From Deltaproteobacteria bacterium (lineage in GTDB: Bacteria > Myxococcota_A > UBA9042 > DTJE01): a stretch of 64,000 nucleotides of DNA. Location: positions 1-64,000 of the forward strand of contig JAKPOP010000010.1 in the NCBI GenBank assembly GCA_029547805.1. The letters run 5' to 3'. Below the pieces are notes generated by a model. That model did not search any database. It was not told where the DNA came from and saw only the letters and a list, made by a program, of their open reading frames with translations. Positions 31,405-41,740 of this stretch are shown piece after piece (positions within the stretch are counted from its first letter, which is position 1; every line of letters starts with the position of its first letter). Position numbers and translations under genes: made by a program.

Positions 31405-32751
<1,347 letters not shown>

Positions 32752-32864: not shown

Positions 32865-34175
32865 TCACCGCTTCGAGAGGGGGACGTAGGACCGCTCCTC
32901 CTGACCCACGTAGATCTGCCGGGGCCGCGCGATCTTCTGTTCCCGGTCCTCCAGGTGTTCCTGCCACTGGACGAACCACCCGGCGACCCGAGGAATCGCG
33001 AAGAGCACCGGGAACATCTCCACCGGGAAGCCCATCGCCTCGTAGATCAAGCCCGAGTAGAAGTCCACGTTGGGATAGAGTTTCCGGCTCACGAAGTAGT
33101 CGTCCTGGAGGGCGATGCGCTCCAGTTCCATGGCGATGTCGATCAGGGGGTTGCGGCCCATCACCTCGAAGACCTCGTCGGCGGTCCGCTTGATGATCCG
33201 GGCCCGGGGGTCGTAACTCTTGTAGACACGGTGCCCGAAGCCGTAGAGGAGCCGCTCCCCCTTCTTCACGTCCCGGATGAACCCCGGGATCCTCTCCTTC
33301 GACCCGATCTCCCGGAGCATCCGGAGCACCGCCTCGTTGGCCCCGCCGTGCAGGGGGCCATAGAGGGCCGACGCCGCCGCGGCAATGGCCGTGTAGGGGT
33401 CCGTGTGGGCGCTTCCGACGACGCGGATCGCCGTGGTGGAGCAATTCTGCTCGTGGTCCGCATGGAGGATGAACAGGATGTCCAGCGCCCGGGCCAGCAC
33501 CGGGTCGTGCTCGAAGTCCACCCGGCGGCCCTTCACGGGCTCCAGCCCATGAAAGACCATGTTGAGGAAGTTTTCCGGGTAGGACAGCGAGTTGTCGGGA
33601 TAGATATAGGGCATCCCCAGGCGATGGCGATAGGCGAAGGCCCCGATGGTGGGAATCTTCGCGATGGCTCGGTCGAACTGGATCATCCGGGTCTCGGCGT
33701 CGCGGATGTTCTTGGACTCCGGGTAGAAGGTCGCCAGCCCCGCGATGGTGGACACCAGGACCCCCATCGGGTGGGCGTCGTACCGGAAGCCGTCCAGGAA
33801 CCGCTTGATGCCTTCGTGGACCATCGTGTGGTAGCGCACCGAGTGGGACCACTGGGCCATCTGGTCCGGCGTGGGCAGTTCCCCGTGATAGAGCAGGTAG
33901 GCCACCTCCAGGAAGGAACTGTGCTCCGCCAGTTGCTCGATGGGGTAGCCCCGGTAGCGGAGGATCCCCTTGTCGCCGTCGATGAAGGTGATGGCGCTCT
34001 TGCACGAGGCGGTGTTGAGGAACCCCGGGTCGTAGGACATCAGCCCGAAGTCGTCCCGCGATACGCGGATGTCTCGCAGGGCCAGGGCAGGAATGCAGCC
34101 TTGCTCGATGGGGACCTCGTAGGTCTTCCCGGTTCGGTTGTCCACGATGGTCAGGGTTTCCCTCGGCGTATCCAT
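32865..34175 (-). CDS. gltA: Citrate synthase (type II)
   Basis: 436 residues, the usual length of the Gram-negative hexameric type. The N-terminal beta domain (SYDPGFLNTASCKSAITFIDGDKGILRYRGYPIEQL) is typical. The catalytic histidine regions HADHEQNCSTTAIRVVGS and PLHGGANEAVLRML, and the FGHRVYKSYDPRARI segment, are all present. It condenses acetyl-CoA with oxaloacetate. NADH control through the N-terminal domain is known for relatives but cannot be shown here. Follows acnA by 33 bases; the space contains a 10-base G run on the coding strand just upstream of the ribosome site. Confidence 0.96.
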   Translation of the reverse strand: MDTPRETLTIVDNRTGKTYEVPIEQGCIPALALRDIRVSRDDFGLMSYDPGFLNTASCKSAITFIDGDKGILRYRGYPIEQLAEHSSFLEVAYLLYHGELPTPDQMAQWSHSVRYHTMVHEGIKRFLDGFRYDAHPMGVLVSTIAGLATFYPESKNIRDAETRMIQFDRAIAKIPTIGAFAYRHRLGMPYIYPDNSLSYPENFLNMVFHGLEPVKGRRVDFEHDPVLARALDILFILHADHEQNCSTTAIRVVGSAHTDPYTAIAAAASALYGPLHGGANEAVLRMLREIGSKERIPGFIRDVKKGERLLYGFGHRVYKSYDPRARIIKRTADEVFEVMGRNPLIDIAMELERIALQDDYFVSRKLYPNVDFYSGLIYEAMGFPVEMFPVLFAIPRVAGWFVQWQEHLEDREQKIARPRQIYVGQEERSYVPLSKR

Positions 34176-34208: not shown

Positions 34209-36881
34209 TCAACCGAGCAGCCTCCTCAGCACCGCCGGCAGCACACCGCCCTGTCGAAGGGTCTCCACCTCGGCGGGCGTGTCGGCCCGGGCCAGGACCC
34301 GGAAGGACCGCGGGTCGCCGTCCTCCCGCCGCACCACCACCTCCAGTTCCTGGCGCGGCGAGGCGAGCCGCGACAGGTCGATGTCCAGGACGTCCTCCGG
34401 CCGCAGGCCCACGGTGTCTGCCGTCTGTCCTTCGAGGAACTGGAGCGGCAGCACCCCCATCGCCACCAGGTTCGCCCGGTGAATCCGCTCAAAACTCTCG
34501 GCCAGGACCGCCCGAACCCCCAGCAATGCCGGTCCCTTGGCGGCCCAGTCCCGGGAACTGCCGGTGCCGTACTCCTTGCCCGCCACCACCACCAGCGGCG
34601 TGTCGCTGGCCAGGTAGCGCGCCGAGGCGTCGAAGATGGACATCACCTCCCCTGAAGGCAGGTGCCGGGTGATGCCTCCCTCCCGGCCGGGAACGAGGCG
34701 GTTGCGCAGGCGAGGATGGGCGAAGGTGCCCCGGGCCATCACCAGGTGGTTTCCCCGGCGAGCCCCGTAGGAGTTGAACTCCTCCGGGGGCACCCCGTGT
34801 TCCATCAGGTAGCGGCCCGCAGGACTGTCCGGGGGAATCGACCCCGCCGGGGAGATGTGGTCCGTCGTGATGGAGTCCCCGAGCCAGGCCAGAATTCGCG
34901 CCCCCCGGAGCGATGCCAGGGGGGTCGGTTCCCGGGAAACGCCTTGCAGAAAAGGCGGCTCCAGGATGTAGGTCGATGTCGGGTCCCAGGCGTACATGTA
35001 GCCCTCGTCCCCTCCCAGTTGCGCCCAGTCCGGGTGGAAGGAGTCCGGGTCCCGGTAGAGCCGATAGTCCTGGGGGTCGTCCACCTGGGACCGCAGGGCA
35101 TCCAGTTCCTGGGCCGTGGGCCACAGGTCCGCGAGCATCACGGGACGCCCGGCGGAATCGAGGCCCAGGGGCTCCCTGGTGAGGTCCAGGTTCACGGTCC
35201 CGGCCAGGGCATAGGCCACCACCAGTGGAGGCGAGGCCAGGTAGTTGGCCCGGGTCAGGGGGTTGATCCGCCCTTCGAAGTTCCGGTTCCCCGACAGCAC
35301 CGCCGCGACCACCAGGTCGTCCCGGGTCACCGCCTCCCGGACCGGCTCGGGAAGTGGCCCGGAGTTGCCGATGCAGGTCGTGCAGCCGTATCCCACCACG
35401 TGGAACCCCAGGGCTTCCAGGAACGGCAGGAGCCCGGTCCGTCGCAGGTACTCGGTGACCACCCGGGACCCCGGCGCCAGGCTCGTCTTGACCCAGGGGG
35501 CCACCTGCAGCCCCCGCTCCACGGCATGTTTCGCCACCAGCCCCGCGGCCAGCAGCAACGACGGATTCGAGGTGTTCGTGCAACTGGTGATCGCCGCCAG
35601 CACCACGGACCCGTGGCCCAGGGTGCGATCCCCGGGCATCGTTGCCGAGGGACGCCCGTAGCCTCCCTGGTCCACCGCCGTGGTCAGGGCCGTCGCAAAC
35701 TGCTTCTTGACCCCCGGGAGCGGGATCCGGTCCTGGGGCCGCTTGGGGCCTGCCACGCTGGGTTCGATGGCCCCCAGGTCAAAGTCGATGGTCTCCCGGA
35801 AGGACGGGTCCGGCGTCTCCTCGTCCCGGAACAGGCCCTGGCTCCGGGCATAGGCCTCCACCAGGGCCAGGTGATCCGCCGGGCGACCGGTCGATGCGAG
35901 GTAGCGCAGCGTGGCCCGATCCCAGGGGAAGAACGACACGGTCGCGCCGTACTCCGGCGCCATGTTGGCCACCGTGGACCGATCCTGCACCGAGAGGCTT
36001 GCAAGCCCAGGGCCGAAGAACTCCACGAACTTGCCCACCACCCCTTTGCGGCGAAGCACCTGGGTGACCGTGAGGGCCAGGTCCGTGGCCGTCGTTCCCG
36101 GAGGAAGCGCCCCCAGGAGGCGGACTCCCAGCACGTCGGGCATCAGCATCGAGAGCGGCTTCCCGAGCATCGCCGCCTCGGCCTCGATCCCCCCGACCCC
36201 GAACCCCACGACGCCCAGCGAATTCACCATCGGCGTGTGGGAATCGGTCCCCAGCACGGTGTCCGGATAGATCAGTTCGCCCTCTCCGAAGGGAACCCGG
36301 AAGACCACCCGAGCCAGATGCTCCAGGTTCACCTGGTGGACGATCCCCACTCCCGGGGGCACCACCCGCACGCCCCGGAAGGCCTGGCGCCCCCACTTCA
36401 GGAACCGGTAGCGCTCCACGTTGCGCTGGAACTCGAGGCGCATGTTCTCGGCGAGGGCCCCGGAGGTGCCGAAGACGTCCACCTGGACCGAGTGGTCCAC
36501 CACCAGGTCCACCGGAATCAAGGGCTCCACCCGGGCCGGGTCACCGCCGAGCCCGGCCACCGCGGACCGCACGGCGGCCAGGTCGGCCACCACCGGCACC
36601 CCGGTGAAGTCCTGGAGCAGGATCCGGGCCGGCAGGAAGGGGACCTCCACCGGGGAGACCCCGTCCCAGGAGGCCGCCGCGGCGACATCCGCCTCCCGGA
36701 TGTCGTGGCCGTCGCAGTTCCGGATCAGGGCCTCGAGGATCACCTTCAAGGAAAAGGGCCACCGGGCGATCCGGCCGCCCTGGTCCAGCGCCTCGATGCG
36801 GATGTATTGCAGGCGACCGTCCCCGAAGGGCAGCCGCGCCAGCGCGCCGAAGGGATCCCGGCTTCCACGGTTCATCGACAT
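34209..36881 (-). CDS. acnA: Aconitate hydratase
   Basis: 890 residues, the AcnA/IRP length. Iron-sulfur cluster cysteines are visible in AITSCTNTSNP and GCTTCIGNSGP. The N-terminal HQVNLEHLARVV and the TDSHTPMVNSLGVVGFGVGG region, and the C-terminal swivel domain (KEYGTGSSRDWAAKG; ESFERIHRANLVAMGVLPLQF), are complete. It isomerises citrate to isocitrate. It starts at ATG 36881 (or 36875), six bases after the stop of the degenerate isocitrate dehydrogenase paralogue, so the two are surely co-transcribed. Confidence 0.96.
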   Translation of the reverse strand: MSMNRGSRDPFGALARLPFGDGRLQYIRIEALDQGGRIARWPFSLKVILEALIRNCDGHDIREADVAAAASWDGVSPVEVPFLPARILLQDFTGVPVVADLAAVRSAVAGLGGDPARVEPLIPVDLVVDHSVQVDVFGTSGALAENMRLEFQRNVERYRFLKWGRQAFRGVRVVPPGVGIVHQVNLEHLARVVFRVPFGEGELIYPDTVLGTDSHTPMVNSLGVVGFGVGGIEAEAAMLGKPLSMLMPDVLGVRLLGALPPGTTATDLALTVTQVLRRKGVVGKFVEFFGPGLASLSVQDRSTVANMAPEYGATVSFFPWDRATLRYLASTGRPADHLALVEAYARSQGLFRDEETPDPSFRETIDFDLGAIEPSVAGPKRPQDRIPLPGVKKQFATALTTAVDQGGYGRPSATMPGDRTLGHGSVVLAAITSCTNTSNPSLLLAAGLVAKHAVERGLQVAPWVKTSLAPGSRVVTEYLRRTGLLPFLEALGFHVVGYGCTTCIGNSGPLPEPVREAVTRDDLVVAAVLSGNRNFEGRINPLTRANYLASPPLVVAYALAGTVNLDLTREPLGLDSAGRPVMLADLWPTAQELDALRSQVDDPQDYRLYRDPDSFHPDWAQLGGDEGYMYAWDPTSTYILEPPFLQGVSREPTPLASLRGARILAWLGDSITTDHISPAGSIPPDSPAGRYLMEHGVPPEEFNSYGARRGNHLVMARGTFAHPRLRNRLVPGREGGITRHLPSGEVMSIFDASARYLASDTPLVVVAGKEYGTGSSRDWAAKGPALLGVRAVLAESFERIHRANLVAMGVLPLQFLEGQTADTVGLRPEDVLDIDLSRLASPRQELEVVVRREDGDPRSFRVLARADTPAEVETLRQGGVLPAVLRRLLG

Positions 36882-36887
36882 GGTCGT

Positions 36888-38159
36888 TCACCTCTCCAAC
36901 AGGTTGCCGAAGGCATCCATCTCCCCCTCGCAGATCTTGCGCCGCTTCTGGGCGATCCGCCGGGCATGCTCCCGAAGCACCGCCCATCGGCCGGCAATCT
37001 CGTTGCTCTCGAGCGTGTTCAACAGGTGATCGGTGAAGTCCCGGGTCGTCGCGCCCCCGGGCCGCCCCGTCACGACCACCTGGCGGTCGAACTGATTCAC
37101 GATGTCCAGGGCCCGGTCCAGCAGGTCGGCCCGGTTCCCGAAGCCCACGTGTCGGGTCAACATGGCCGCGGCCCGGAACATGCTGGAGGGGTCGGCGTAG
37201 TCCCGGCGCCCCTCGGCGATCATCCGGGGGGCGGTCCCGTGGATCGGTTCGAACACCGCGTGCCGCGTCCCGATGCTGGCGCTCCCGACGGTGCCGACCC
37301 CACCCTGGAGCACCGCCGCCGCCTCGGTCAGGATGTCCCCGTAGAGATTCGGGAGCACGAAGACGCAGGTGCCGGTCGCCCTGGACAGGTCCGCCATCCG
37401 GGCAGCCGCAAGGTCCGCGTGCCAGACCTCCCACCGGATGTCCGGGTACCGGGCCGCCATCTCCTCGCCGACCTGGATGAACATTCCGTCCGTGGCCTTG
37501 ATCACGTTCGGCATCGCCACGCCGGTCACGCAGTTGATCCCCCGGCAGCGGGCGTGTTCGAAGGCCATCCGGAGAATCCGGCGGCTCCCCGGAACCGTCG
37601 CCACGGACAGGTCCACCGCCAGGTCCGGAGTCACCTGGAGCCCGCGGCTGCCCAGGGGATAGGGCCCCTCGGTGTTCTCCCGGAAGAAGGTCCAGTCCAG
37701 GTCGCGGCTCGGGACCCGGACCGTCCGGACGTTTGCAAAGAGGTCCAGTTCCCGACTCAGGGCCACGTTGGCGCTCTCAAGGTCCGGGAGGCCCCCACCC
37801 CGGTCCGGGGTCGTGGTCGGGCCCTTCAGGATCACGTGGCAGGCCCGGATCTCCTCCCGCACCTCGGGGGGAATCGCCTCCCCGCACCGAACCCGGTTCT
37901 CGATGGTCAGCCCTTCGATGGTCCGCAACTCCACCTTGCGGTCCAGGATCTCCGCCTGGAGGATCCGTCGCAGGACGCGGACCGCCTCGCGGGCAATGCC
38001 GGGACCGATGCCATCCCCCGGGACCACGCCGATCATAAGGGGGCTCGCCTGCGTGTAGTCCACCGGAACATCGCCGGCCTCGAGGGCCTCGACCCGGCGC
38101 ACCTGTTCCTCGAGCAGGGGGGCCAGGCGTTCCAGGGCCCGGGCAACTGCAGGGTTCAT
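36888..38159 (-). CDS. Isocitrate/isopropylmalate dehydrogenase paralogue with degenerate active site
   Basis: 423 residues of the beta-decarboxylating dehydrogenase fold (PGDGIGPGIAREAVRVL; FRENTEGPYPLG; LPNLYGDILTE; HGTAPRM). The catalytic Tyr region is kept, but three active-site positions differ from E. coli Icd. The substrate arginine of the SxNxxLR loop is S135, the catalytic lysine of VHKGN is M216 (VAMPNVIK), and the second metal aspartate is E279. The equivalent residues are intact in the icd of this same window. This resembles the loss seen in regulatory subunits of eukaryotic NAD-IDH. It may be a regulatory or pseudoenzyme partner, or act on another substrate. First gene before acnA (6 bases), with its own promoter candidate. 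Confidence 0.8.
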   Translation of the reverse strand: MNPAVARALERLAPLLEEQVRRVEALEAGDVPVDYTQASPLMIGVVPGDGIGPGIAREAVRVLRRILQAEILDRKVELRTIEGLTIENRVRCGEAIPPEVREEIRACHVILKGPTTTPDRGGGLPDLESANVALSRELDLFANVRTVRVPSRDLDWTFFRENTEGPYPLGSRGLQVTPDLAVDLSVATVPGSRRILRMAFEHARCRGINCVTGVAMPNVIKATDGMFIQVGEEMAARYPDIRWEVWHADLAAARMADLSRATGTCVFVLPNLYGDILTEAAAVLQGGVGTVGSASIGTRHAVFEPIHGTAPRMIAEGRRDYADPSSMFRAAAMLTRHVGFGNRADLLDRALDIVNQFDRQVVVTGRPGGATTRDFTDHLLNTLESNEIAGRWAVLREHARRIAQKRRKICEGEMDAFGNLLER

Positions 38160-38215
38160 CGCGTCCCTCCTGGCATTCGCCGGCGATCCTCCAGGAACCC
38201 CTCCCGGCCGGCAAC

Positions 38216-38243
38216 TTTATCCGACCAACTTTCTCCGAGTCAA
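38216..38243 (-). promoter_or_regulatory. Candidate sigma-70 promoter for the IDH-like/acnA/gltA unit
   Basis: On the minus strand TTGACT (38243-38238), a 16-base spacer, then GATAAA (38221-38216). It sits in an unusually AT-rich patch of the 151-base gap between the glyoxylate fusion gene and the IDH-like gene. Confidence 0.5.
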
Positions 38244-38310: not shown

Positions 38311-41637
<3,327 letters not shown>

Positions 41638-41707
41638 CGGAACCTCCAACAGGTATTGCCAGCAATCCCGGCAGGGTGGACAGAAGGTGAGGTCGGATTC
41701 CGGTCTC

Positions 41708-41740
41708 GTCAATATCCAGGACAATTTTTATCAGATTGAC
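41708..41740. promoter_or_regulatory. GTCAAT...ATTGAC dyad upstream of the glyoxylate fusion gene
   Basis: A perfect 6-base inverted repeat (41708-41713 and 41735-41740) encloses an AT-rich core with TTTTTATC. It lies 71-103 bases upstream of the start codon, in the only AT-rich part of the region. Candidate operator or promoter area for control of the bypass. Confidence 0.35.

Follow-up and report, generated by a model that had tools for sequence, protein, structure and literature searches.

RESULTS AND DISCUSSION

Gene cluster and expression signals

The window, which is the whole stretch of 64,000 nucleotides analyzed here, contains on its minus strand a gene cluster in the order HPPD-like dioxygenase, malate synthase-isocitrate lyase-hemerythrin fusion, a gene for a protein related to isocitrate dehydrogenases (IDHs), acnA, gltA, and icd (Table 1). 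The IDH-related protein is designated “pseudo-IDH” in the following. Its stop codon (36890-36888) is separated by 6 nt from the ATG of acnA at 36881, both genes being on the minus strand, which is the distance given in a preliminary description of the locus. A Shine-Dalgarno-like GGAGAGG for acnA is located within the last codons of the pseudo-IDH gene.

Table 1. Features of the gene cluster and of the pseudo-IDH gene
Feature	Position	Strand	Remarks
HPPD-like dioxygenase, first in the cluster	43039-41861	Minus	
Malate synthase-isocitrate lyase-hemerythrin fusion, upstream	38311..41724	Minus	Pfam domains
Sigma-70-like promoter, TTGACT-18-TAAAGT (putative)	38214..38243	Minus	Consensus scan
Shine-Dalgarno-like GGAGGG of the pseudo-IDH gene	38165..38170	Minus	Sequence; conserved in congener
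Putative pseudo-isocitrate-dehydrogenase gene	36888..38159	Minus	423 aa, intact ORF, ATG start, PF00180 family
Codon of S135, substrate-carboxylate Arg position	37755..37757	Minus	Window species only; Arg in congener and 100% of subfamily
Codon of M216, catalytic general-base Lys position	37512..37514	Minus	Lys in 79/79 subfamily members; Met only in window and congener
Codon of E279, metal-binding Asp position	37323..37325	Minus	Asp in 79/79 subfamily members; Glu in window and congener
C-terminal tail, residues 386-423, predicted helix 388-410	36891..37004	Minus	Basic, genus-specific; absent in other members
acnA, aconitase	34209..36881	Minus	PF00330 and PF00694
gltA, citrate synthase	32865..34175	Minus, same direction	PF00285
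icd, NADP-type isocitrate dehydrogenase	31405..32751	Minus	NF005425 above cut-off; all catalytic residues (S N R R R Y K D D D)

In a consensus scan, the 151 nt that separate the malate synthase-isocitrate lyase gene from the pseudo-IDH gene contained one promoter-like site, compared to 0.1 expected. Both hexamer regions of this site and the Shine-Dalgarno-like sequence of the pseudo-IDH gene were conserved in a congener (see below), which indicates that the pseudo-IDH gene is probably the first gene of an operon with acnA. Co-transcription with the aconitase gene, as claimed in the preliminary description, is thus probable from the layout and these signals. The promoter-like site contains a near-repeat at 38243-38214 on the minus strand, GAGAAAGTTGGTCGGATAAAGTT in the window and GATAAAGTCGGTCTGATAAA in the congener, a possible site of action for a regulator of the aconitase operon.

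In the genus of the window, one protein of 1137 residues combines malate synthase and isocitrate lyase with a hemerythrin-like domain; in several relatives from the same class, malate synthase and isocitrate lyase are encoded by separate adjoining genes, and the hemerythrin part was unmatched. The Icd protein contains a zinc-knuckle-like insert with four cysteines (CLHC...CDQC, residues about 114-136). It is located in the loop that immediately precedes the substrate-binding Ser/Asn, at the place where the E. coli IDH is phosphorylated. Of 30 Icd proteins compared, 4 had this insert (those of the window, L122, L123, and L124), and the other 26 lacked it. It is possibly a metal- or redox-sensitive switch.

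Family and predicted structure

The 423 residues of the pseudo-IDH contain a single domain, which matched the PF00180 profile with 174.4 bits (gathering score 27; E value, 5e-51). None of the NCBIfam equivalog cut-offs for IDH, IPMDH, HICDH, or tartrate dehydrogenase was reached, the best match being NF006673 with 200 bits versus a cut-off of 509. An AlphaFold2 model (mean pLDDT, 88.7) predicted the dehydrogenase fold with an extra N-terminal helix (residues 3-27) and a C-terminal helix (388-410), and the nearest solved structures in a Foldseek search with this model were human IDH3 and bacterial NAD-dependent IDHs. The C-terminal tail was conserved in the congener, with the genus-specific helix almost unchanged.

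Catalytic residues

The pseudo-IDH was aligned with Icd, other members of the family, and human IDH3 alpha. The preliminary description had reported Met at the position of the catalytic Lys (M216), Ser at that of a substrate-binding Arg (S135), and Glu instead of a metal-binding Asp (E279), and the alignment agreed on all three sites. S129, N131, R145, R160, Y167, N218, D249, and D275 were kept. The positions of S135, M216, and E279, the last being the third metal Asp, correspond to R119, K230, and D311 in the E. coli numbering. In human IDH3, they are R88A, K184B or K182G, and D234A, respectively (PMC9731866; PMC5241874). Structures of human IDH3 assign to this Lys the role of general base in a Lys-Asp-Tyr triad (PMC9731866). 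The triad characterizes catalytically active beta-decarboxylating dehydrogenases (IDH, IPMDH, HICDH, TDH); D275 and Y167 are present in both members of the genus, but the Lys is M216. In the three-Asp metal site, D249 and D275 are kept, and the third position is occupied by Glu 279, a residue that might still coordinate a metal.

The congener protein, which is 80% identical and derived from an independent assembly, possesses the same AMPN motif and the same Glu, so that a sequencing error or frameshift was ruled out. It retains Arg 135, and S135 is limited to the species of the window. None of about 124 other aligned homologues was without the Lys, which puts K216M far from chance.

The same substitution has been made in the laboratory. 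A K-to-M mutant of the E. coli IDH reportedly keeps about 1% of the activity. In the PDB chains 1cw1, 1cw4, 1idc, and 1idf, position 230 of the E. coli enzyme is occupied by Met. A search of a limited set of open-licence papers found nothing on E. coli K230M or on the catalytic lysine of beta-decarboxylating dehydrogenases.

Parent subfamily and distribution

In a scan of 84,980 species genomes, the best 80 of 581 matches were kept. Among these, a subfamily with about 50-56% full-length identity to the pseudo-IDH occurred in Clostridia, Chloroflexota, Thermoplasmatota, Fidelibacterota, KSB1, and others, and all 79 full-length members outside the genus kept the Lys, the Arg, and the three Asp, so that positions 216, 279, and 135 are invariant in them. 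The preliminary description had asked for a phylogeny of the family; a quick tree placed the window protein inside this separate subfamily with 98% SH-aLRT. A divergent copy of Icd was ruled out by this placement and the low identity of 29% to Icd.

K216M and D279E were found only in the genus of the window, in two independent assemblies, and neither occurred in about 124 other homologues; this changed form is thus carried by two genomes only. Apart from the window protein, Met at position 216 was found solely in the congener, “Myxococcota bacterium isolate Go_SlDig_bin_299” (genome G001, protein L035), in which the order of the surrounding genes is the same as in the window. The subfamily was present in 3 of 52 genomes of the class and in 4 of 379 of a phylum sample. 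No further Lys-less homologue appeared in these samples, and the two members from outside the genus both keep the Lys. A subfamily that is without the Lys as a whole was therefore ruled out; the loss is genus-specific.

The patchy distribution points to a horizontal acquisition of the pseudo-IDH ancestor. An aconitase gene is located nearby in many members of the subfamily, and in the KSB1 bacterium L051, the IDH gene, with its Lys present, is directly adjacent to acnA. This pair suggests that both genes traveled jointly, and the IDH gene and acnA were most likely acquired together.

Evolutionary tempo and selection

The stem branch of the genus in the quick tree comprised 2.15 changes per column compared to 0.34 and 0.20 for the tips. 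The aconitases of the same loci behaved in a clock-like manner, with identities of 58.8% (window versus the Lys-containing relative L036), 58.9% (window-L051), and 60.7% (L036-L051), versus 52.6%, 51.0%, and 69.0% for the IDHs of the same pairs. The acceleration is specific to the IDH gene and does not concern the aconitase. Of 139 subfamily-invariant columns, 20 were changed in the window protein and 19 in the congener, 13 of them shared, compared to 8 or fewer in any other member; in the Icd of the genus, none of 89 invariant columns was changed. The columns changed on the stem were not significantly close to ligand residues (P = 0.13), and a targeted remodeling of the active site was rejected on this basis; when all changed invariant columns were counted, clustering near ligand residues reached P = 0.03.

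Between the window and the congener, differences at codon positions 1, 2, and 3 were 0.128, 0.102, and 0.317, respectively. The dN/dS ratio was calculated by NG86 and LWL85, and the NG86 value of about 0.25, versus 0.07-0.19 in neighbor genes, made the pseudo-IDH gene the fastest-evolving one of the cluster; dS is probably underestimated at such a GC content, and the ratios are best compared between genes. Residues 361-390 displayed no replacement but 9 synonymous changes. After the split of the two species, 13 of 139 invariant and 72 of 284 variable columns changed, and the ORF boundaries stayed intact in both. This lower rate at invariant columns, the unchanged stretch, and the conserved tail indicate a constraint on the fold and the tail, no longer on catalysis. 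Purifying selection after a long, fast stem means that the protein is maintained. A pseudogene was ruled out by the dN/dS ratio and the stretch 361-390 without amino acid change. Each species nevertheless continues to lose further invariant residues, including the substrate Arg 135 in that of the window, which weakens the idea of a ligand sensor and would fit a slow decay.

Alternative substrates

The genome of the window (assembly 96.7% complete) contains one PF00330 gene, which is the acnA of the operon, and two Iso_dh genes in all. Neither an isopropylmalate isomerase (LeuCD) nor a homoaconitase was found in this assembly. Given this small set of aconitase-family and Iso_dh genes, the protein is unlikely to use isopropylmalate or homoisocitrate, and the earlier proposal that it acts on another acid lacks an enzyme that would feed these compounds into the reaction. 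A LeuB or homoisocitrate dehydrogenase in disguise was rejected for the same reason. No LeuB or LeuC-like gene was found in this nearly complete genome, which suggests leucine auxotrophy or another route to leucine in the organism.

A proposed maintained pseudoenzyme and its alternatives

The pseudo-IDH has very probably ceased to work as an ordinary dehydrogenase and been retained for a different purpose, as indicated by the residue losses together with the purifying selection; to this extent, the interpretation in the preliminary description is supported. With a probability of about 0.55, it is a maintained, genus-specific pseudoenzyme that serves as a non-catalytic regulator or scaffold within its own operon. 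According to this model, an ordinary IDH gene directly upstream of the aconitase gene would have been redundant in the ancestor of the genus, which had the NADP-type Icd in the same cluster. The Lys that deprotonates the hydroxyl group of isocitrate would then have been lost by K216M and the metal site altered by D279E. The fold, most carboxylate-binding residues, the two other metal Asp, and the examined cofactor-loop residues would have been kept, and a conserved C-terminal helix would have been gained.

Owing to the missing Lys and the altered metal site, efficient oxidative decarboxylation should be impossible. The protein may still bind Mg-isocitrate or citrate; binding of a tricarboxylate and Mg is probable for the congener protein and perhaps weaker in the species of the window. 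From this, we infer a loss of activity, a retained ligand binding, and a role with a partner. Most likely, the pseudo-IDH would serve, without catalysis, as a scaffold for another enzyme encoded in its operon or as a regulator of this enzyme that responds to tricarboxylates; the foremost candidate for such a partner is aconitase. A more specific version, in which the new C-terminal helix would relay the binding of citrate or isocitrate by the pseudoenzyme to aconitase or to the Icd-isocitrate lyase branch point, is possible but doubtful. If true, an IDH pseudoenzyme would exert a non-kinase, non-transcriptional control of the split between glyoxylate cycle and TCA cycle.

Alternatively, the active site may have been rebuilt, for instance, with H247 as the base instead of the Lys, for another reaction or a 2-hydroxy acid. 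Tyr or Phe 247 has changed to His in both members of the genus, two residues before the metal Asp 249; R145, R160, Y167, D249, and D275 are retained, and a long stem followed by slow tips is what a shift in function would produce. Such a retuned enzyme is unlikely nevertheless, because the isomerases that would supply the known alternative acids are missing from the genome, S135 removes a second catalytic-site residue in the species of the window, and the changes were not concentrated at the ligand site. We also know of no Lys-free active member of the beta-decarboxylating dehydrogenase family. A relic in slow decay, kept mainly as the first gene of the operon whose translation opens the ribosome-binding site of acnA, would agree with the highest dN/dS ratio of the cluster, with the continued loss of invariant residues in each species, and with the acnA Shine-Dalgarno-like site inside its last codons, 6 nt of spacer included. 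The protein-level purifying selection over the whole length, with residues 361-390 fully conserved despite synonymous change, and the intact ORF boundaries make this explanation rather improbable, and coupling alone would not preserve a fold of 423 residues.

A low-activity IDH that is still used as such at a reduced rate is the least probable explanation. The substrate and metal residues are mostly kept, and crystallization of the E. coli K-to-M enzyme with substrates (1cw1, 1cw4, 1idc, 1idf) indicates that binding survives the change from Lys to Met, but a crippled copy would add nothing to the fully equipped Icd of the same cluster, and R135 is lost in the species of the window. It is also very improbable that the pseudo-IDH pairs with Icd as an allosteric subunit in the manner of eukaryotic IDH3, which had been suggested in the preliminary description. 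Both genes reside in the same cluster and direction, and the residue losses concern one of the two family members of the genome. Icd, however, belongs to another subfamily, its clasp region is about 24 residues longer, and the Icd of the genus displays no changed invariant residues that would mark a new interface. To our knowledge, every hetero-oligomeric IDH pairs subunits of one subfamily, and a closely related catalytic partner with the same clasp is not present in the genome, since Icd is the only other PF00180 gene. The analogy also fails at the key residue: in human IDH3, the Lys is retained in both beta (K184B) and gamma (K182G), which donate it to the active site of alpha (PMC5241874; PMC9731866), so that the loss of the Lys is the opposite pattern, and a Lys-less partner would disable an Icd site that needed completion.

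Among kinases and proteases, pseudoenzymes are a familiar phenomenon, whereas reports from bacterial central carbon metabolism are scarce, and no relevant paper linking isocitrate dehydrogenase with pseudoenzymes was found in a limited set of open-licence papers. In the maintained pseudoenzyme proposed here, the Lys-to-Met change that enzymologists made in the E. coli IDH has been fixed naturally, in a gene that is still positioned before the aconitase gene and under selection. The intact relatives at about 50% identity and the congener with Arg 135 are ready controls for function tests.

Comparison with known systems

The closest known relatives are the clostridial and archaeal PF00180 proteins of the “isocitrate/isopropylmalate dehydrogenase family” subfamily, with about 390 aa, an N-terminal helix, and the motifs NIESANVAMRKELDLFANVRP, TKANVIKTTDG, and PNLYGDI(L/I)TDEAA. 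The N-terminal extension is common to them and the window protein, and the C-terminal helix extension occurs in the genus of the window only and in none of the 79 compared members. Following HG(S/T)AP, this parent subfamily (L036-L118) has an invariant Arg-Met at positions 312-313, in contrast to the Asp-Ile of NAD-IDHs and the Lys-Tyr of NADP-IDHs. The known rules therefore do not predict which cofactor it prefers.

The bacterial NAD-dependent homodimeric IDHs of Methylococcus capsulatus (PDB 6lky) and Xanthomonas campestris (6m3s/6ltf) have the short-clasp fold in common with the window protein at 31-33% identity, and its metal and carboxylate residues mostly align with theirs. Unlike the window protein, they are active, and their Lys is present; the window protein also differs from NAD-IDHs by Arg-Met instead of Asp-Ile at residues 312-313. 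The Icd of the window, an E. coli-type NADP enzyme, shares superfamily and operon with the pseudo-IDH but has kept all catalytic residues. In the E. coli K230M mutant, the identical substitution at the identical position is an engineered single change, whereas in the genus of the window, it is natural, fixed, and accompanied by many other changes. The regulatory subunits human IDH3 beta and gamma and yeast IDH1 are non-catalytic with the same fold as the window protein, and citrate or isocitrate is bound at the former active site of IDH3 gamma (PMC5241874). These subunits, however, have retained the Lys, which they supply to the catalytic subunit, and their partner is a close homologue; neither is true of the window protein, which possesses M216 at the position of Lys182G and Lys184B.
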